From positions 1 to 64,000 of the forward strand of contig JAFLKM010000053.1 of the NCBI GenBank assembly GCA_019163335.1: a stretch of DNA of 64,000 nt. The letters are read 5' to 3'. The first letter of the stretch is position 1. Each line of letters opens with the position of its first letter. Shown piece by piece: positions 35,214 through 54,363 of the stretch. The position numbers and the translations under genes are program-made. Below the pieces are notes generated by a model. It ran no database searches and was not told the origin of the DNA. It was given only the letters and a program-made list of their open reading frames with translations. This stretch comes from Desulfobulbaceae bacterium. Lineage in GTDB: Bacteria; Desulfobacterota; Desulfobulbia; Desulfobulbales; Desulfocapsaceae.

Positions 35214-37367
35214 ATGCAGGAAAACAGAGTCACAGGCGACAGGCCCATCATCCCCTCCAACTCCTCCACGCCGCGTAAATACCTGCCCTGTTTCCTGCTG
35301 GTGGTGATGCTTTTAGGAACCTTTACTTTGGCGTGGATTTTTACTGCCGGCTCGGCCTTTGAGGGAGCAAAGGATTCTCACACCTTGATGTCGATCCTTG
35401 CTCCCGGGGTGCTTCTCAGCTTTCTGTTCTTCTTCCTGTCTCGAGGGCAGGAAAAAAAATATCAGCGGGCGCTCATCCAGGCCGGTGCGATGACGGTGGA
35501 ACTGGAAGCGGCGAGAAGGCAGGCCGATGCTCAGGCTCGCAAGACAGAGCTGATTCTGAACTCGGCCGGCGAGGGAATTTTTGGTCTGGATCTGCAAGGG
35601 TATGGCATTTTTATTAATCCGGCCGCTGAAAATATGCTGGGATTTGCCCCCCAGGAACTGATTGGCATGGAAATTCATATCCTTACCCAGAATAGCCAGA
35701 CCCATGATGGTGCCGCCGAGATTGGACTGTGCCCCATCTGTCAGACCTTGCAGGATGGCCAGTCCCATGAGACCACCGAGACTGTTTTCTGGCGGAAGGA
35801 CGGCACCCCTTTTCCGGTTTCTTACGCCAGCACCCCGATCTATGAGTCCGGTAAGCTGGCAGGGGCTGTGGTCACCTTCAGTGATATCACTGAGCACCTG
35901 CGTGCTGAGAAGGATCGTTTTGTGCGGGTGGTTTCCGAACAGGCGAACAAGGCCAAGAGCACCTTTTTAGCGAATATGAGCCATGAGATCCGGACGCCGA
36001 TGAACGCCGTTCTGGGCTGCGCCCAGCTTCTGTTGAATGATCAGTCTTTTTCGGCGCGTCAGACGGAGCTGTTGCGCATTATTGAACGCTCCGGCGGCCA
36101 TCTGCTCGATCTGATTAACGATATCCTCGATATCTCGATGATCGAAGCCGGGCGGGTGTCCCTCAAGGAGGCGGTGTTTGATGTCCATGATCTCCTCCAG
36201 GATATGAAGGCGGTTTTCTCCATGTCTGCTGAGGCTAAGGCAATCCGGTTTTTCATGGATTATGATGAAACCCTGCCCCGCTATATCCTGGCGGATGGAG
36301 GAAAGCTGCGTCAGGTTCTGGTCAATCTGCTCGGCAATGCCATCAAGTTTACCGACAAAGGGGGTGTGGTGCTCCGTGTCCGCACGGATTGCCAGCCGGG
36401 GCAACCCGGGGAGAACCCCGGAGACATGCAGCATTGTACCCTGCTCTTTGAGGTGGAAGATTCCGGCAGCGGAATTTCTGAGGAGGTGCTGGAGAAGATC
36501 TTTAGTCCCTTTGAGCAGCCCTCGGGCGGGGTGAAGCCGGGTGGTACCGGTCTTGGCCTGCCCATCAGCAGCAAGCTTGTCCAGTTGATGGGAGCTCGGC
36601 TCAGTGTTGAGAGCAAGGTGGGAGTTGGCAGTTGTTTCTTCTTTCGCCTGCCGGTTCAGGCTCAACAAAGCGAGCAGGAATGTAAGCTTGAAAAAGTTGA
36701 TAATCGGCCCGTGGTCGGTCTTGAGCTTGGCACCGACCCCCTACGCATCCTGGTGGTGGATGATAGTGATGCCAACCGGGTTCTGCTTCGGAGAATTCTG
36801 GAAATGGCCGGATTTTCGGTGGTCGAGGCCGGCAACGGCCAGGAGGCCATCGACAGCTTTGAGAAATTCGCCCCGCAGGCGGTGCTCATGGATATCCAGA
36901 TGCCGGTGATGGATGGTCTTGAGGCCACCCGTCGACTCAAGGCCACAGAGAAGGGGCGGGCCGTGCCCTTTATTGCCATTACCGGGAATGCCTTTGATGA
37001 GGATCAGAAGAAGGGGTTGGCCATTGGGATGGCCACCTATTTATGCAAGCCATTCCGGGCCGAAGAACTGCTGCGGGTGTTGGGTGGATGCCTTGATCTG
37101 CGTTCTCTGTATCAGGAAACCGCCCCAAACCCCTCACCTCGGGAGCAGGTTGTGACGGCGGAGATGCTTTCTGAGCTGCCCCGGGAGTTGCTGGCGTCAC
37201 TCCGGCAGGCAGTGGCAGAAGGGGATACCGCCTGTCTGCGGGAGTTGATTGCCAGGGTACAAGAAAAAGACGCGGCCGCCGCCGTCGGGCTCCAGACCTT
37301 AGCCGATCGTTACGACTATCAACAACTTGATGCGTTGCTGAAAAAAGGAGAACAGAGTCATGGATGA
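35214..37367 (+). CDS. Hybrid sensor histidine kinase (2TM-PAS-HisKA-HATPase-REC)
   Basis: A 717-residue kinase. Two membrane helices near the N-terminus (about 25-45 and 57-77) enclose a very short periplasmic loop, so sensing is probably internal. A PAS domain with a CPICQ insertion (residues about 105-230) precedes HisKA (His about 257 in FLANMSHEIRTPMN), HATPase (VLVNLLGNAIKFT, VEDSGSGIS, GGTGLGLPIS) and a receiver domain with Asp about 560 (AVLMDIQMP). The last 70 residues are helical, as in BarA-like kinases. It starts one base after the previous stop codon and overlaps the next gene by 8 bases, so the three are one transcript. Confidence 0.93.
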   Translation: MQENRVTGDRPIIPSNSSTPRKYLPCFLLVVMLLGTFTLAWIFTAGSAFEGAKDSHTLMSILAPGVLLSFLFFFLSRGQEKKYQRALIQAGAMTVELEAARRQADAQARKTELILNSAGEGIFGLDLQGYGIFINPAAENMLGFAPQELIGMEIHILTQNSQTHDGAAEIGLCPICQTLQDGQSHETTETVFWRKDGTPFPVSYASTPIYESGKLAGAVVTFSDITEHLRAEKDRFVRVVSEQANKAKSTFLANMSHEIRTPMNAVLGCAQLLLNDQSFSARQTELLRIIERSGGHLLDLINDILDISMIEAGRVSLKEAVFDVHDLLQDMKAVFSMSAEAKAIRFFMDYDETLPRYILADGGKLRQVLVNLLGNAIKFTDKGGVVLRVRTDCQPGQPGENPGDMQHCTLLFEVEDSGSGISEEVLEKIFSPFEQPSGGVKPGGTGLGLPISSKLVQLMGARLSVESKVGVGSCFFFRLPVQAQQSEQECKLEKVDNRPVVGLELGTDPLRILVVDDSDANRVLLRRILEMAGFSVVEAGNGQEAIDSFEKFAPQAVLMDIQMPVMDGLEATRRLKATEKGRAVPFIAITGNAFDEDQKKGLAIGMATYLCKPFRAEELLRVLGGCLDLRSLYQETAPNPSPREQVVTAEMLSELPRELLASLRQAVAEGDTACLRELIARVQEKDAAAAVGLQTLADRYDYQQLDALLKKGEQSHG

Positions 37368-38472
37368 CATGCAGGAAAAAATTACCATCATGGTGGTCGA
37401 CGACACCCCAGCCAACCTCAAGCTCCTGGAAGAGATGCTGAGCGGAGAAGGGTACCGGGCCATCATGTTTCCAAGCGGGATCCTGGCGTTGAAGGCGGCC
37501 ATCAGAAATCCCCCCGATCTTATTCTGCTTGACATCATGATGCCGGAGATGGATGGCTTTGAAACCTGTCGGCGGCTCAAGGAAGAGGCGGCAACCCAGG
37601 AGATCCCGGTGATCTTCCTGAGCGCCCTGAATGACACCGAAAGCAAGGTCAAGGCCTTTTCCATGGGCGGTGTCGATTACGTGACCAAGCCATTTCAGTT
37701 CTCCGAGGTCAAGACCCGTGTGGAGACCCATATCAGCCTGCGGCGGAGTCAGACCCTGCTGAAACGGCAGAATCAGCATCTGGAGGAGATGATTCAGGAA
37801 AAGGTCAGAGAGATCTCCGAGTCGCAGCTGGCCACCATCTTTGCCGTCTCAAAGCTTGCGGAATCGCGGGATGATGAAACGGGCTGGCATATCGAGCGCA
37901 CCCGCATCTTCTGTCGGGATCTAGCCGACAGGCTGGCCGACACCCCCTTGTATGCGAGCCGTCTTTCCCCCACATTTATTGAGAATATCTATCATGCTTC
38001 ACCCCTTCATGATATTGGCAAGGTGGGCATCACCGATAATATTCTGCTCAAACCGGGCAGGCTGACCGCAGAAGAGTTTGAGATCATGAAGACCCATACC
38101 CTGATTGGAGCAAGTACATTGCAGACCGTGTACCAAAAATACCCGGGCAATGCCTTCCTCGGCATGGGCATTGATATCGCCCGCTCCCACCATGAAAAAT
38201 GGGATGGCAGTGGCTATCCTGATGGCCTGGCCGGGGAGCAGATTCCCTTGAGCGCACGCATCATGGCCATCGCCGACGTGTATGATGCCCTTCGCTCCAA
38301 ACGTCCCTACAAAGAGCCTTTTTCGCACGACAAGAGTGCCGCGATTATTGTGGAAGGGTCTGGCCGTCACTTCGACCCGGTGGTGGTCGAGGCTTTTATT
38401 GCGCTCTCCCAAGAACTTGTCGAAATTCCGGGCAGTGCATGGCTGAAAGAGGAAGAGAATGTTTGTGTGTGA
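37360..38472 (+). CDS. Response regulator with HD-GYP c-di-GMP phosphodiesterase domain
   Basis: A 370-residue cytoplasmic regulator. Receiver domain at 8-125 (MVVDDTPAN, Asp in LILLDIMMPEMDG, Lys in YVTKPF), a short coiled coil (about 128-155), then an HD-GYP domain with HDIGKVGI (about 216-223), a further conserved His in MKTHTLIG, HH in ARSHHEKWDGSGYP and ADVYDALRSKRPYK. The catalytic residues are present, so it should hydrolyse c-di-GMP when phosphorylated. The preceding hybrid kinase, with which it overlaps, is the likely phospho-donor. Its presence in a che cluster suggests cross-talk with second-messenger control. Confidence 0.94.
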   Translation: MDDMQEKITIMVVDDTPANLKLLEEMLSGEGYRAIMFPSGILALKAAIRNPPDLILLDIMMPEMDGFETCRRLKEEAATQEIPVIFLSALNDTESKVKAFSMGGVDYVTKPFQFSEVKTRVETHISLRRSQTLLKRQNQHLEEMIQEKVREISESQLATIFAVSKLAESRDDETGWHIERTRIFCRDLADRLADTPLYASRLSPTFIENIYHASPLHDIGKVGITDNILLKPGRLTAEEFEIMKTHTLIGASTLQTVYQKYPGNAFLGMGIDIARSHHEKWDGSGYPDGLAGEQIPLSARIMAIADVYDALRSKRPYKEPFSHDKSAAIIVEGSGRHFDPVVVEAFIALSQELVEIPGSAWLKEEENVCV

Positions 38473-38805
38473 GCAAGGACGGAAGGGGCAGGAAGCCTGC
38501 CTGCCTGGTTCGGGGTGTGCGGGCCGGAAACGCAAGGGGTAATACGGGTGCCCGATTTTGAACAATCGCTACGTTTTGATCTCAAATCACTAAATTTATT
38601 TGTTTTGTTATCCGCGTTGCGGGGAAGTCAGCCGGAGTTGTGCCCGATTTTGAACAGACGGGCCCTGCAACCCCATGGCTGAAGAAGATGGAACTTTTAG
38701 TGTTGTTGTCTAATTAACTGGAATAATAAGTAAAAATATTATTTCGTGTTTTGGCCCAAAAATTGCTTCAGGGTAAAACAAGATTCAACTTTTTTCATTG
38801 ATTCT
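38473..38805. other. Spacer with paired CCCGATTTTGAACA motifs
   Basis: No gene is visible. The motif GTGCCCGATTTTGAACA occurs at about 38549 and again at about 38641, 92 bases apart, almost the same spacing as the motif in the 91-bp repeats near 32.1 kb, although the intervening sequence differs. The segment 38700-38760 is AT-rich and probably contains the promoter for the soluble MCP-like gene. Confidence 0.5.
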
Positions 38806-40809
38806 ATGCAAAACCAGGCACTGATGAATTTTAAAGAATGGTGGTTTACCTCATTGAGGCCCTTGTTGGTCAAAGGGTCAAGGGCTGCTGCCGCCCCTGT
38901 CGAATCCTTCGCTGGAAACCGGCAGGACGGTGCGGAGTCCCTTCTGCATCCTTCCATCGACAAGGGCGCCGAGGAAGCCCGCAAAGCCGAAGCAGCTGCA
39001 CAGCTCAAAATGGCAGGAGCAGCGAGCCAGGCAAGAGTGGATGTGAAGCAGTTGAGTGCTGCCCTGACCAGGGCCTGTCGGGAAACCGATCCTGAATTTA
39101 TGCGCCTGGGTCAGGATCTGCAGGAGATTTACGGCGCCGCCATGGGCTTGACCAATTCCGTTCAGCAGGCCGCCTCACACTTGAGCCAAGGTGCGGAGGG
39201 CATGACCTGTCTCGATCGGGCCGGTTTTCTCGTGGAGAATGCCTGGAAAAGTCTCACCGGTGAGCAGGAGAATATCGAGAAAGGTCTCGATCATGTTCGC
39301 AAACTCCTCGACCATCTGGAGAAATTTTCCTTGGTCTGTGACAGGATCAACCGCATCGGTCTCTGGTTTCGGGTGGTCGGGGTGAATATCGAAATAGAAT
39401 GCAACGTCCAGCACTTGAGTGGCGATATGTTTGCCGGTGTGTCCAAAGAGGTGAATGTCCTGTCCGGGCAAATCAATCAGATGGTGGCAGGCATGAAAAA
39501 CGGCCTGGTCACGGCCATCAGCGGATTGTCCACCCTTGAAGGGTCCTCATCCAGAAGTCTGGCCGAGATCGGTCAGATGGCGGAAAAGGCTCAGGGGATT
39601 GTCCGGAGCTCCTATGACAATATCCAGGAGATCCTGGCAGAGACCGTGACCCTGATAGACACCGCAACAACAAGGGCCCGGATTATCGGGGCAAAAGCCG
39701 GGGATGTGGTGGTTGGGATACAGTTCCACGATTCCATGAGTCAGCGGATAGAGCATATTGTGGAGGCCATGGAGGATATTACCGGGCTTTGTGAGACATC
39801 GGGGAAAGTGGAAACCGGAGAAACTGCACAGACTCTGGGCTCTGTGTACTTCATCCTTGATCTTCAGAAAAAACAGCTCCACAACCTGCGAGAAGAGATC
39901 CGGGAGCTGGCCTTGACCACTCAGGATTCCTTTCAGATCATTAACGGAGAAATTGTTGACATGCGGGGCGAGCTGGCTGGTTCCAGGTTGACCGGGAATT
40001 GCAGAAACGGTTCCGGAGCGGATTGTTTCAAGCCTTTGCAGCAGGGCTTACTGAATTTGGGGAAACTGCTCACCACCGGCAACACCATGAATGATGCGCT
40101 GCACCAGTCCACGGAAGAGATTGCCTCGGTGGCCGATCAGCTGCTGGGGATGATTGTCGGGGTCCGAAACATTAAGGAAGAGACCCATATCAAGGCCATC
40201 AACACCATTATCATGGCGAACCATCTGGGCAGTCAGGGGATGACCATTGAGGTGCTGGCCAAAGAAATCCGCTCCCTGGCGGATCAGACCGGTGAACTGG
40301 CCGCCGAAGTCTCCACTATCCAGGCGGATATCGTCGAGGAGGTGGCGGCCTTGCGGGCCACCGTTGCCGAGGAGAGCGCCACCATCACCGTGCCTGAACT
40401 GGAAGATGGTATTGCCGGGATGGGAGTATCCTTCCAACAGGTGCAGGAACAGATGGGCGGGGTCACTCAGAATACCGCTGCCATTGCCCAGCAAATCGGA
40501 GGTGTGGCGGCACGATTGTCCTTTCTCGAGAATCTCGGCTGCAAGATGGAGGAGTCCATCAGCCAGGTCGAGCAGATATTGACGGATCTTGAACCCTGGC
40601 GAGATAGCGGCCAGGTGCATGATGAGAATATCCTCCGCCTCCTGTCCCGCTACACCATGGATCAGGAGCGGCTGGTTCATCTGCCCATGGATGGCAGTCA
40701 GCAGGCAGTGGCGGCAGACAACGATTTTGAACTGTTTTCGTCGGATGGGGCAGAGGAGCAGGGAACTGCCGACGTGACATTGTTTGATGATAACGTGGAG
40801 TTATTTTAA
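38806..40809 (+). CDS. Soluble MCP-like coiled-coil chemosensory protein
   Basis: About 667 residues with no membrane helix. The middle is long alpha-helical coiled coil; DSMSQRIEHIVEAMEDI and INTIIMANHLGSQGMTIEVLAKEIRSLADQTGELA resemble degenerate forms of the MCP hairpin tip, but the canonical [16 protein letters not shown] is absent. The C-terminus ends DDNVELF after an earlier DNDFELF. Such proteins accompany STAS-CheY-CheA genes in deltaproteobacteria; their job is not established to my knowledge, possibly a cytoplasmic scaffold or receptor. The start is uncertain (GTG 38746, ATG 38806 or ATG 38824; none has a good ribosome-binding site). Confidence 0.75.
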   Translation: MQNQALMNFKEWWFTSLRPLLVKGSRAAAAPVESFAGNRQDGAESLLHPSIDKGAEEARKAEAAAQLKMAGAASQARVDVKQLSAALTRACRETDPEFMRLGQDLQEIYGAAMGLTNSVQQAASHLSQGAEGMTCLDRAGFLVENAWKSLTGEQENIEKGLDHVRKLLDHLEKFSLVCDRINRIGLWFRVVGVNIEIECNVQHLSGDMFAGVSKEVNVLSGQINQMVAGMKNGLVTAISGLSTLEGSSSRSLAEIGQMAEKAQGIVRSSYDNIQEILAETVTLIDTATTRARIIGAKAGDVVVGIQFHDSMSQRIEHIVEAMEDITGLCETSGKVETGETAQTLGSVYFILDLQKKQLHNLREEIRELALTTQDSFQIINGEIVDMRGELAGSRLTGNCRNGSGADCFKPLQQGLLNLGKLLTTGNTMNDALHQSTEEIASVADQLLGMIVGVRNIKEETHIKAINTIIMANHLGSQGMTIEVLAKEIRSLADQTGELAAEVSTIQADIVEEVAALRATVAEESATITVPELEDGIAGMGVSFQQVQEQMGGVTQNTAAIAQQIGGVAARLSFLENLGCKMEESISQVEQILTDLEPWRDSGQVHDENILRLLSRYTMDQERLVHLPMDGSQQAVAADNDFELFSSDGAEEQGTADVTLFDDNVELF

Positions 40810-41710: not shown

Positions 41711-43801
41711 ATGGATGTTCATGCCGAGGCATTTAAGGAAGAGGCGTATGAGCTGTTGACTGAGCTTGAGACCTCGCTGCTTGAGCTGGAAGAGCGGCCC
41801 GACGATAGTGAGGTGGTGGGCCGGGTCTTCCGGGCCATGCATACGATTAAGGGTTCCGGGGCGATGTTTGGATTTGACGCGGTTTCTGAATTCACCCACG
41901 AGGTTGAAACTGCCTTTGACCGGGTTCGGGAAGGGATGATCAAAGTGACGCCTGAACTCATCAGCATGACTTTGCAGGCCCGGGACAAGATCCTTGAACT
42001 TCTCAATAACGGCGGTGACGGGAAGGACGCAGACGCCCGACGTATCGTCACTGAGTTTCAGCGAATCTGCTGCTGTGGAGAGACTACGGAGAATGTGGAC
42101 CCGGTGGCCGAAGATTTTGGAGCTGCCCTTCACGCCGGCATGGAGAGACGCCGTACCTATCGCATTCGCTTCAAGCCTGTGCCCTCATTTTTTGCCAATG
42201 GCTCCAATCCCCTGCCCCTGCTCAATGAATTGCGGGAGATGGGCGAGAGCACCGTCATAGCCCATCTTGATGCCATCCCGATGCTTGCCGACTATGTTCC
42301 GGATGAGTGTTACACCTTCTGGGATATCATATTGACCACGGACCAGGATGAAAACGCCATCCGTGACGTCTTTATCTTTGTCGAAGATCAGTGTGAGCTC
42401 ACCATCGATATCATCCACGTTGATGGAGAACTCGAGGATAACGAGGAGTACAAACGCCTGGGAGAGATTCTTGTTGAGCGTGGCGACATCAGTACCGAGG
42501 CTTTAAATGAGATTATCGGCCATCAGCCGCGTCTGGGCGAAAAGCTGGTGGCGTCGAAGGCCGTTGACCAGTCGATGATTGATGCCGCCCTCCTTGAGCA
42601 GCAGCATATCGCCAAAATTCGGGAAAAAGATGTGCAGAAGGTCAAGGCCGTCACCTCCATCAAGGTCGATTCCCTTCGCCTGGATAATATGGTTGATCTG
42701 GTGGGGGAACTGGTCACGGTGCAGGCCCGACTGACCCAGAAGGCGGAAAATAATCAGGACCCTGATCTTCTCCTTATTGCTGAGGAGGTGGAACGGTTGA
42801 CCACGGAGTTGCGCGACAACACCATGTCCATCCGCATGCTTCCCATCGGCAGCACCTTCTCCAAGTTCCGCCGACTGGTCAGGGATCTTTCCCGTGATCT
42901 GGGCAAACAGATCGAGATGACCACCGAAGGGGCGGAGACCGAGCTGGATAAGACCGTCATTGATCAACTCAATGACCCCCTGGTCCATATCATTCGCAAC
43001 TCCATCGACCACGGCATTGAAGCGCCTGATGTCCGTCTGGCCAATGGCAAGCCCAAAGAAGGTGTCATCCGCCTTGCCGCGCACCATTCCGGAGCCTTTG
43101 TGCTCATTGAGATCAGTGATAACGGCGCCGGCCTTGATCCCGAGAAGCTGCGTAACAAGGCGGTGAGCAAGGGCCTGATTGCCCCCGATGCCGATCTCAG
43201 TGTTGATGAATGCTTTGCCCTGATCCTTGAAGCCGGATTTTCCACCGCAGAAAAGGTCACCGATGTCTCCGGGCGCGGGGTGGGCATGGATGTGGTGCGG
43301 CGCTCCATTGAAAATCTGCGCGGCGAGATCGGCATCACCTCAAAACTTGGGGTTGGCACCACCATCACCTTGAAACTGCCCCTGACCCTGGCCATCATTG
43401 ACGGCCTGCTGGTGCAGATCAGCGACGATTTTTTTGTTATCCCCCTTTCCATGGTGGAGGAATGTGTCGAGCTCAGCCGTGAAGAAGCGCTCCTGGCCAA
43501 GACCCGTTCGATGATGAGTTTCCGGGGCGAGCTTTTCTCCTACATCAGTCTACGCGACAGCTTTGCCATTCCAGGCGATCCGCCGGCCATTGAACGGGTT
43601 GTGCTTGCCAGTGTCAAGGGCGAGAAGATTGGGTTTGGGGTGGATCAGGTTGTCGGTCAGCATCAAACCGTGATCAAGACCCTGAGTAATGTGTACCGGG
43701 ATGTTGTTGGTATCTCAGGAGCCACCATCCTTGGCGATGGCTCCGTGGCCCTGGTGCTTGATGTCAACCAGCTGGTTGTTGAGACCACCCATAACGGATA
43801 A
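41711..43801 (+). CDS. cheA: Chemotaxis histidine kinase CheA with MshEN-like insertion
   Basis: A 696-residue kinase. Hpt domain with phospho-accepting His 44 (FRAMHTIKGSG), then a region of about 140-235 related to the GGDP/Hpt-linker of deltaproteobacterial CheAs, then two tandem 24-residue units at about 249-272 and 274-298, each beginning RLGE and ending in Gln, which match the MshEN c-di-GMP-binding pattern. H-kinase dimer segment (about 318-375), HATPase (DPLVHIIRNSIDHGIE, ISDNGAGLD, GRGVGMDVV, GVGTTITLKLPLTLA) and CheW-like P5 domain complete it. No classical P2 domain is seen. Start ATG 41711 has TGGAG eight bases before. It phosphorylates CheY and CheB. Confidence 0.95.
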   Translation: MDVHAEAFKEEAYELLTELETSLLELEERPDDSEVVGRVFRAMHTIKGSGAMFGFDAVSEFTHEVETAFDRVREGMIKVTPELISMTLQARDKILELLNNGGDGKDADARRIVTEFQRICCCGETTENVDPVAEDFGAALHAGMERRRTYRIRFKPVPSFFANGSNPLPLLNELREMGESTVIAHLDAIPMLADYVPDECYTFWDIILTTDQDENAIRDVFIFVEDQCELTIDIIHVDGELEDNEEYKRLGEILVERGDISTEALNEIIGHQPRLGEKLVASKAVDQSMIDAALLEQQHIAKIREKDVQKVKAVTSIKVDSLRLDNMVDLVGELVTVQARLTQKAENNQDPDLLLIAEEVERLTTELRDNTMSIRMLPIGSTFSKFRRLVRDLSRDLGKQIEMTTEGAETELDKTVIDQLNDPLVHIIRNSIDHGIEAPDVRLANGKPKEGVIRLAAHHSGAFVLIEISDNGAGLDPEKLRNKAVSKGLIAPDADLSVDECFALILEAGFSTAEKVTDVSGRGVGMDVVRRSIENLRGEIGITSKLGVGTTITLKLPLTLAIIDGLLVQISDDFFVIPLSMVEECVELSREEALLAKTRSMMSFRGELFSYISLRDSFAIPGDPPAIERVVLASVKGEKIGFGVDQVVGQHQTVIKTLSNVYRDVVGISGATILGDGSVALVLDVNQLVVETTHNG

Positions 43802-48232: not shown

Positions 48233-48268
48233 GCTCTGCAAGCTAGGGCAGTATCTAGCTTGCAGAGC
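48233..48268 (+). terminator. Strong hairpin after the MCP gene
   Basis: GCTCTGCAAGCTA (48233-48245) pairs perfectly with TAGCTTGCAGAGC (48256-48268) around a 10-base loop, 9 bases after the stop codon. There is no T tract, so it may protect the mRNA end rather than terminate. It is also the first part of the tandem array that follows. Confidence 0.5.
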
Positions 48269-48628
48269 CTACGGACTCTTATGCCGCCTCGTGCAACAGC
48301 CAATCTTCACCGGCTGTTGTACGGGTGGCGTGTCGCCAAAACATCAGGAATCGAGAACATTCAGAGAAATAAAATAGATATACAAGCAAGGGCTGTATCT
48401 AGCTTGCGAAGCCGACAGGCTCTTATGCCGCCTCGTGCAACAGCCAATCTTCACCGGCTGTTGTACGGGTGGCGTGTCGCCAAAACATCAGGAATCGAGA
48501 ACATTCAGAGAAATAAAATAGATATACAAGCAAGGGCTGTATCTAGCTTGCGAAGCCGACAGACGTTTATGCCGCCTCGTGCAACAGCCAATCTTCACCG
48601 GCTGTTGTACGGGTGGCGTGTTCCCGAA
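48246..48628 (+). repeat. 144-bp tandem repeat array (about 2.7 units), each with a hairpin
   Basis: Units are in register at 48281, 48425 and 48569. Each contains CAACAGCC, a 10-base loop and GGCTGTTG (48294-48319, 48438-48463, 48582-48607). The first two units are nearly identical; the third diverges after GGGTGGCGTGT. An open frame runs through because 144 is a multiple of three, but codon content and the lack of a start signal argue against a protein. Confidence 0.85.
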
Positions 48629-50177: not shown

Positions 50178-50301
50178 ATTCCATTTCTAAATCAAGCGTT
50201 CACTTCGTCGAATGCGCTGCGTCGCTCCTCACCGTACTTATTGTACTGCCTCGTCGCGACTCGTTTTTCTCCTCGTGCACATCTTGATTTAGAAATGGAA
50301 T
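50178..50301 (-). mobile_element. 124-bp MITE-like element, copy 2
   Basis: Perfect 19-bp terminal inverted repeats, ATTCCATTTCTAAATCAAG at 50178-50196 and its complement at 50283-50301. The length is exactly that of the copy at 31848 and the interiors are closely similar in reversed orientation. Its right tip touches the TAA stop of the J-domain gene on the minus strand, just as copy 1 touches the stop of the NtrC-type gene. Confidence 0.8.
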
Positions 50302-51056
50302 TAGTCCCGCCGTGCGAGAAAGTTGTGTTTACTCAGTTGCCAGAGGGCATCGCGCAGTTGTTCTTGAGAGAGTAGATTGTTCTGGAGGAAAAACTGGCCG
50401 ATTTTTGGCTGCCTGATCTGCTGATGACGCAGCAGCCGTTCCACTTGTTGCGGAGTGAGCAGGCCAAGGTGCACCGCGGTTTCGCCAAAGCGCAATCCTG
50501 TCTGCAGGGACTGAAAAATGGTCAGGATGTCCTGCTTCTCTATCCATCCGAATTTGCATGCGATTTCTCCGAATCGCGGCCTGCTCCGGCGCTGCCAGAT
50601 CAAGGCTTGCGTAATCTCGCTCCATGCGCAGTACCCCAGTGAGTGGAGAAATTCCCCCAAGATCATCCGGCGGGCCGGGAGAGAGAAATATTCCCTGTCT
50701 TGAGATGGTTGGGGGCGCTGGCGAGCATGTGTCGTGCGGCCTGCTTTTGGGTTGAGTCGAGAGGCCGGGACCGGGTGGGAGGAGACTCCACGCTGGTCGA
50801 GAAAATGGCAGAGCTGTTCGTAGGAGTCCCTGACTAGAAGAAAATCGATATCCGTTGGAAGGTTTGCGATATTGTTGGCGATGACATCGGGATGGGTTTC
50901 CTTGACCCGATCCCGGTAGGCGCTTTTTACTCCGGAGAGCTGGATATACTCCAGGAATGGGGCGGAGATGGCGAGATGGGAGCCAAAAAGGACCTCGCAG
51001 GCTTGAAGAAGTTTTTCTTTCTGGTCAGGATAAAAACGCATACAAGTGGATTTCAT
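50301..51056 (-). CDS. J-domain protein with MshEN/GspE-N-like C-terminal repeats
   Basis: About 251 residues, cytoplasmic. Residues 16-75 look like a compact J domain with the essential HPD (LSGVKSAYRDRVKETHPDV, HPD at 55-57), which should stimulate a DnaK-type chaperone. After a Pro/Arg-rich linker (about 88-115), three similar helical units follow (FGEIACKFGWIEKQDI, FGETAVHLGLLTPQQV, IGQFFLQNNLLSQEQL), resembling MshEN/GspE N-terminal modules. A start at ATG 51056 is chosen; TTG 51068 and ATG 51041 are alternatives. The combination is unusual and the function unknown. Confidence 0.75.
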   Translation of the reverse strand: MKSTCMRFYPDQKEKLLQACEVLFGSHLAISAPFLEYIQLSGVKSAYRDRVKETHPDVIANNIANLPTDIDFLLVRDSYEQLCHFLDQRGVSSHPVPASRLNPKAGRTTHARQRPQPSQDREYFSLPARRMILGEFLHSLGYCAWSEITQALIWQRRSRPRFGEIACKFGWIEKQDILTIFQSLQTGLRFGETAVHLGLLTPQQVERLLRHQQIRQPKIGQFFLQNNLLSQEQLRDALWQLSKHNFLARRD

Positions 51057-51194
51057 TGCTGTCGGCAAGCCGGAGGGAACGAGAATAGCGGGAACTTTTG
51101 AACAGGATGTCAGATTTGCGCAGAGGTAGCAAGTAAAATGTCCCAGCTATATTTTTTCCATCCCTGAAAAGGTTTGTGGTGCAGCCATCATCTC

Positions 51195-53256: not shown

Positions 53257-54363
53257 TTAACGGTTCAGATATTCGCCATAGCCCTCTTCTGTAAGCTTTG
53301 ATTGGGGGATAAAGCGCAAGGCTGCTGAGTTGATACAGTAGCGCAGGCCGGTGGGGGCAGGGCCATCGTCAAAGACATGGCCGAGGTGTGAATTGCCGTG
53401 CGCGCTGCGGACCTCGGTTCTCACCGTAAACAGGCTCCGGTCCATTTTCTCGACCACATTCTGAGACTCCAGGGGTTTGCTGAAACTGGGCCAGCCCGTC
53501 CCTGAATCAAACTTGTCGCGTGCGCTGAACAGCGGTTCGCCGCTGACCACATCGACATAGATCCCCGGCTCTTTATTGTCCCAGTAGGTATTACGAAATG
53601 GGGGCTCCGTTCCCTCCTTCTGGGTCACATCATACTGGAGAGGGGTCAGGCGACGACGCAACTCTTCATCAGATGGCTTTTCGTACCGGTTTTTCTTGTG
53701 TATGTCTTTTGCATCCTTTGCATCCTTTGCATCCTTTGCATCCTTTGCATCCTTTGCATCCTTTGGCCACATCTTCTCCTGAAATCCTTTTCTTCCCGAG
53801 CCCTCTTTATAGGCGGCGTAATGGCTGTAGTTCTTTCGGTAATAATCCTGGTGATATTCCTCCGCCTCATAAAAAGGGGCGGCAGGCAGGATTTTCGTGG
53901 CAATGGGCCGATCGAACAGACCGGAGGCCGTAAGTTCAACTTTCGACTGCTCGGCCTGGGTCCTCTGCTCTTCATTCTGGTAAAAGATGGCTGATTTATA
54001 TTGAGAGCCCCGATCGGCAAACTGACCGCCGCCGTCCGTCGGATCAATCTGGCGCCAGAAGACCGTAAGGAGCTGCGGATACGAGATTTTCGCGGGATCA
54101 TAGATGACCCGAACGGCCTCATAATGGTCGGTGCGGCCGCTGCTTACCTGCTGATAATCGGCGGTTTCTTTGGTTCCTCCGGCGTACCCGGCCTTTACCT
54201 CGACCACACCTTCCAGTTCTTCAAAGGGCGGTTCCATGCACCAGAAACAGCCGCCGCCAAAAACGGCGACCTTTACGTCTTTATTCTGCTCCTCTGCGGT
54301 TGCCGGTGCAACCCATACCATTGCTGTCATCAATGCCGCCACAAGGGCAAAAAATAGATCCAT
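53257..54363 (-). CDS. msrAB: Exported methionine sulfoxide reductase MsrA-MsrB fusion
   Basis: A 368-residue fusion with an N-terminal signal peptide ([23 protein letters not shown]). MsrA domain at about 30-185 with catalytic Cys in [11 protein letters not shown]; MsrB domain at about 225-365 with [27 protein letters not shown] and catalytic Cys in [11 protein letters not shown]. The zinc-binding CxxC pairs of many MsrBs are absent. The linker is a KDA tripeptide repeated six times, from a 9-bp DNA repeat. GGAGG five bases before the ATG at 54363 fixes the start; an upstream in-frame extension to 54495 is unlikely. It repairs oxidised methionines in periplasmic proteins. Confidence 0.95.
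53711..53764 (-). repeat. 9-bp tandem repeat in the MsrA-MsrB linker
   Basis: Six perfect copies of GCATCCTTT on the plus strand encode Lys-Asp-Ala repeats on the minus strand. Slippage would change linker length in steps of three residues while keeping the frame. Confidence 0.9.

Follow-up and report, generated by a model that had tools for sequence, protein, structure and literature searches.

Known links between c-di-GMP and chemotaxis run mostly through separate adaptors or receptors, such as PilZ proteins acting on CheR and PilZ-containing receptors. In MshE, the two MshEN motifs are separated by a spacer of five residues, and MshEN_N on its own (1-62), lacking the C-terminal subdomain, still binds c-di-GMP (0.35 uM; PMC5013675). 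Leu2 of either motif packs with Leu17/Leu21 of the opposite motif (PMC5013675, PMC11731258), hence one site needs both motifs. In PilF of Thermus thermophilus, c-di-GMP binding by GSPII-B has been measured at 6 nM, and the first residues of the motifs in GSPII-B and GSPII-C are not Arg and include a Pro in motif II of GSPII-C, so that position 1 may vary (PMC11731258). MshEN-like domains that do not bind are also on record, namely GSPII-A of Thermus PilF (PMC12002112) and XpsE, which has lost binding (PMC5013675). Wang et al. 2016 name CheA, in one clause, among the MshEN-associated proteins (PMC5013675). A search of the open literature, with most subscription papers lying outside it, found no binding or kinase study of an MshEN-bearing CheA.

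The window analysed here is a stretch of 64,000 nucleotides from a Desulfobulbaceae bacterium, of the sulfate-reducer type, and its relevant features are listed in Table 1. The CheA that it encodes carries P1 Hpt, P3, P4 ATPase and P5 CheW-like domains, all found in order with Pfam and AF2, and the NCBIfam CheA models score below their cut-offs on this protein. The P2-like domain has no Pfam match. In an AF2 model of the full-length protein (pTM 0.40, used for domain boundaries only), P1 occupies residues 2-121, the P2-like domain 148-237 and the repeat helices 250-314, and P3 starts at residue ~321. An earlier note on this DNA had described two 24-residue units, one residue apart, between the Hpt side of CheA and its dimerisation domain. 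Both units are present, at residues 249-272 and 274-297 with Pro273 between them, and the placement is correct, the exact site being between P2 and P3. Three other CheA-like proteins of the same genome are without an MshEN-like module.

Table 1. Coordinates of the features discussed, numbered from the first nucleotide of the window
Feature	Coordinates	Strand	Description	Evidence
cheA	41711..43801	+	696 aa; P1, P2, MshEN-like module, P3, P4, P5	Pfam Hpt, H-kinase_dim, HATPase_c, CheW
P1 Hpt domain	41726..41977	+	residues 6-89	Pfam PF01627, E 1e-14
P2-like alpha/beta domain	42152..42421	+	residues 148-237	inferred from AF2 secondary structure, pLDDT mostly 80-89
MshEN-type motif I, RLGEILVERGDISTEALNEIIGHQ	42455..42526	+	residues 249-272	NF053729 and PDB profile matches; two AF2 helices
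Pro273, single-residue spacer between motifs	42527..42529	+		sequence
MshEN-type motif II, RLGEKLVASKAVDQSMIDAALLEQ	42530..42601	+	residues 274-297	NF053729 and PDB profile matches
Helix 4 of module, helical extension into P3	42602..42658	+	residues 298-316	AF2 helix 287-314
P3 dimerisation domain	42653..42832	+	residues 315-374	Pfam PF02895
P4 ATP-binding domain	42974..43387	+	residues 422-559	Pfam PF02518
P5 CheW-like domain	43403..43777	+	residues 565-689	Pfam PF01584
REC-HD-GYP	37360..38472	+	probable c-di-GMP phosphodiesterase (predicted)	Pfam Response_reg, HD_5 E 1.3e-28; motif HHEKWDGSGYP
Second MshEN-motif protein	50301..51068	-	255 aa; just past cheB	NF053729 63.4 bits, E 1.3e-17

The MshEN consensus applied consists of two tandem copies of RLGxx(L/V/I)(L/V/I)xxG(L/V/I)(L/V/I)xxxxLxxxLxxQ, each of 24 residues. 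In its strict form, the window CheA departs from it at I-11 (Asp), I-21 (Ile), II-10 (Lys for Gly), II-11 (Ala) and II-17 (Ile). Relative to the relaxed motif of Wang et al. 2016, the sole deviations are D11 in motif I and K10 in motif II. The two motifs are identical to one another at 7 of 24 positions, a self-similarity that was equalled in 131 of 20,000 shuffles. NF053729, an MshE-related NCBIfam model of the c-di-GMP motif with a curated cut-off of 38 bits, gives 37.9 bits (E 1.1e-9) on the isolated CheA segment, 29.2 bits on the whole protein and, with frame neighbours, 38 bits, counted as over the cut-off. The same model matches 28 of 28 CheA linkers (that of the window and 27 related ones), the best with an E of 3.7e-16. 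When a profile made from these 28 linkers was searched against all PDB chains, it recovered PilF (E 3.3e-27), PilB (E 1.8e-9) and MshE (5htl, E 4.4e-9), and every match under E 0.01 was an MshEN-type pilus ATPase (E 3e-27 to 6e-4). As a single phmmer query against the PDB, the window segment found PilF at E 7e-6. In Pfam, searched with E up to 10, no MshEN/T2SSE_N model matched CheA or its linker. The profile search that the earlier note had proposed as a check was thus positive with NF053729 and with the linker profile, and these profile matches give strong support to homology between the repeat and MshEN. The repeat is, however, a variant of the pattern that the note had claimed, with one residue in place of the canonical spacer of five.

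The ligand positions, defined as those touching c-di-GMP in MshE, are all kept in the window CheA (12 of 12, with Ile accepted for Leu at I-21 and II-17). Position II-10 varies among its near relatives, where Asn and Arg are found. Among the CheAs with a one-residue spacer (effective number ~40), mean conservation is 3.48 bits at the ligand positions, 3.05 bits in the structural core and 2.11 bits in the rest (permutation p ~8e-4). In motifs I and II, respectively, of these CheAs, Gly3 is found in 100 % and 100 %, Gln24 in 85 % and 100 %, and Arg or Lys at position 1 in 97 % and 77 %; position 21 is Leu or Ile in 100 % and 92 % (Leu alone in 92 % of each). The module is under purifying selection, in a linker that CheAs do not usually conserve. 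Its dN/dS is 0.05-0.10, similar to that of P1 and P2, with 0.39-0.52 for the poorly conserved stretch that follows it (residues 298-316) and ~0.9 for the P1-P2 linker (saturated against L010); these values are approximate because the comparison covers only three sequences (the window, L009 and L010) and L010 is nearly saturated at synonymous sites.

Distribution of the module was examined in 36 CheA loci from named genomes, the best 30 loci from 297 genomes of the phylum and 40 further stretches; a CheA match was found in all 30 of the best phylum loci. In a CheA tree built on P3-P5 by a quick method with SH-aLRT support only, almost all modules with a one-residue spacer fall in a single clade (SH-aLRT 99), which covers Thermodesulfobacteriota, Nitrospirota, Magnetococcales and Telmatospirillum, with some Pseudomonadota among them. 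A few such modules, e.g. those of L099 and L103, lie outside this clade, and L096 is too short for placement. The other CheA groups have the same motifs with spacers that are mostly of 2-14 residues, including 5-7. The spacers of the CheA modules span -2 to 14 and, as parsed, 56 of 89 are of one residue. The motif starts of L085-L087 and L113 were mis-set in the parse and gave spurious spacers of -16 and -9; by eye, the spacer of L085-L087 is 1. The frequency table for all CheA modules includes the mis-set L085-L087 and L113 and was not relied on; the table for modules with a one-residue spacer is unaffected. The CheA of L113 has at least four MshEN-type motifs in series ahead of P3.

Within the one-residue-spacer clade, the module has been lost in L030 and in L028, the latter being without both motifs, and the Gln of motif I has been lost in L014 and L019, where motif I is genuinely shortened. 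The window CheA clusters, with weak support, with L028, L014 and L019, and decay near the lineage of the window is therefore a real concern. In L037, a gammaproteobacterial CheA, the module has been deleted save for its last helix and is kept in the close relatives L031, L032 and L042, to which L037 is a natural module-less comparison. The short-spacer and long-spacer CheAs form a second natural comparison.

With a spacer of 1, the window CheA departs from the five-residue spacer and 53-residue domain of MshEN, and the canonical MshEN bundle is for this reason not assured. Spacer length does vary among MshEN relatives, and is longer in GSPII-C of PilF, one of the PDB profile matches. An AF2 model of the segment (pTM 0.54) has four helices where MshEN predicts them, with a core pLDDT of 92-98. 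Foldseek with this model returned no MshEN chain among its matches, and neither did a re-alignment with VIA-align limited to Foldseek's own list. Structure prediction, also proposed in the earlier note, agrees with MshEN in the places of the helices, and the lack of a fold match was not counted as evidence against MshEN. The short spacer in CheA would be accommodated either by trimming helix 2 by one turn or by pairing of the halves between protomers.

Homology together with the conserved ligand-contact positions suggests, on good grounds, that the module binds c-di-GMP, and we lean, with modest confidence, towards c-di-GMP tuning CheA through this linker, read as an MshEN variant with a short spacer. 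The P2-P3 linker would then be a divergent MshEN_N module in which two helix-turn-helix units jointly bind c-di-GMP, with arginines and leucines sandwiching both guanines and glutamines holding the ribose-phosphates. Binding would stiffen or reorient the P2-P3 connection, change the access of P1 to P4 and so tune autophosphorylation of CheA or phosphotransfer to CheY/CheB. The module lies between P1-P2 and the dimeric P3-P5 core, with its last helix reaching P3, and a ligand bound there would therefore be expected to alter P1 access to P4. That the C-terminal subdomain of MshEN is absent from CheA is no objection, since the N-terminal subdomain binds alone. The genome has 19 GGDEF and 12 PilZ matches, so c-di-GMP is very probably present in the cell; it also has an FlhA-family flagellar export gene, and messenger and motility are both very likely present. 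From these findings we infer binding, of whatever affinity, and an effect on the kinase, of either sign, that may extend to flagellar output. If this is correct, a kinase-borne receptor module, held by one CheA clade in at least three phyla, would put c-di-GMP at the pathway's central enzyme.

The module may instead derive from MshEN and have lost c-di-GMP binding in this lineage, being retained between P2 and P3 either as a stiff helical spacer or for the docking of a protein, e.g. CheW or a receptor. An NF053729 score right at the cut-off, the change of Gly to Lys at II-10, the short spacer, the lack of an MshEN match in Foldseek and the loss of binding residues in the sister lineages L014, L019 and L028 would all be consistent with this. 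However, none of the ligand positions has been lost in the window CheA, even though Ile stands for Leu at I-21 and II-17, and Gln24, for which no structural role is evident, ranks with the best-conserved residues of the clade. Moreover, L028 and L030 have lost the module entirely, so such a spacer is dispensable. We regard loss of binding as unlikely, though still to be taken seriously.

A less probable arrangement, which we rate as doubtful, is that the spacer is too short for both halves of one chain to pack together. Motif I would then be paired with motif II from the partner CheA, and the dimer geometry would be sensed or locked through c-di-GMP binding. A spacer of exactly 1 across nearly the whole of a well-supported clade, when other CheAs mostly have 2-14, fits such a swapped bundle, as does the failure of Foldseek to find a closed MshEN relative of the single-chain model, and in MshE both motifs are required for each site (Leu2 with Leu17/Leu21 across motifs; PMC5013675, PMC11731258). 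On the other hand, a trimmed helix 2 could compensate for a spacer that is shorter by roughly one helical turn, and CheA is already dimeric via P3. The broader form of this proposal, that the whole class of CheAs with a one-residue-spacer MshEN forms its c-di-GMP site only between protomers and would be a c-di-GMP-gated kinase, appears slightly more doubtful again.

The earlier note had also proposed that the cluster controls c-di-GMP through its REC-HD-GYP protein, in a feedback loop with CheA. The identification of this protein holds, as both domains are found with Pfam and its motif fits the HHExxDGxGYP type. The gene is on the same strand as cheA, 3.2 kb upstream, and this adjacency is kept in L009, the nearest relative (94 % identical); an intact motif at this distance would be in keeping with a dedicated loop between module and phosphodiesterase. 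However, L009 is the only other locus where the adjacency was found. No HD-GYP gene was found beside cheA in L010, an 82 % relative whose contig reaches 4.6 kb upstream, or beside 34 other CheA loci in the stretches compared, some of which are of <6 kb on one side. Matches labelled HDGYP at other CheA loci are short (~100-160 residues) and fit the receiver domain, not the catalytic motif. Most of the loci without the gene bear the module, which therefore does not depend on it. In the window, the HD-GYP gene and the end of a gene for a separate hybrid kinase overlap, and this kinase is the more evident partner of the HD-GYP receiver domain. Synteny in the stretches compared thus speaks against the loop as a general feature, and we consider a dedicated loop at this locus very unlikely. 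A chance repeat within a coiled, charged linker, for which a self-similarity of just 7/24 could be cited, is ruled out by the profile matches to proven MshEN domains (E 1e-9 to 1e-27), and with conservation across phyla and the low dN/dS also against it we give it practically no weight.

A second protein at the chemotaxis cluster, encoded just past cheB, has three scoring MshEN-motif stretches and is a further candidate c-di-GMP receptor judged by its sequence. Its N-terminus is weakly J-domain-like and includes HPD (DnaJ E 0.006, below the cut-off). Between the MCP gene and cheB, at 48239-48621 (+), there is a tandem array with 2.7 copies of a 144-bp unit that are 95 % alike. A perfect 9-bp repeat (6.4 copies) at 53708-53765 encodes (Asp-Ala-Lys)n within the linker of an apparent MsrA-MsrB fusion identified by eye, and strains may differ in the number of copies. 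An MCP-signal-like protein, with PF00015 just under the cut-off, is encoded at 38746-40809 (+), upstream of STAS and CheY, and weak relatives of it are found at the same position in most Geobacteraceae loci.

Among the systems described, MshEN_N of V. cholerae MshE (5htl; PMC5013675) resembles the CheA module in its two tandem 24-residue motifs, the Arg/Lys-Leu-Gly start, Leu17/Leu21 and Gln24, and the profile match of the CheA linkers to it extends over both motifs. The CheA module differs in having a spacer of 1 rather than 5, no C-terminal subdomain, Asp at I-11 and Lys at II-10, and in lying in a kinase linker whereas MshEN_N is at the N-terminus of an ATPase. GSPII-B and GSPII-C of T. thermophilus PilF (6f8l, 8pfa; PMC11731258) are its best PDB matches, but their spacers are of at least 5 residues and they belong to a pilus ATPase. 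The module also matches, weakly, models of NfrB, an E. coli glycosyltransferase with MshEN, where the output enzyme is different. The CheAs named by Wang et al. 2016 (PMC5013675) likewise join the c-di-GMP motif to CheA. The MshEN-CheA architecture had therefore been noted before; the short spacer and the conservation across a clade are described here, for a putative c-di-GMP receptor module within the kinase that is homologous to MshEN.
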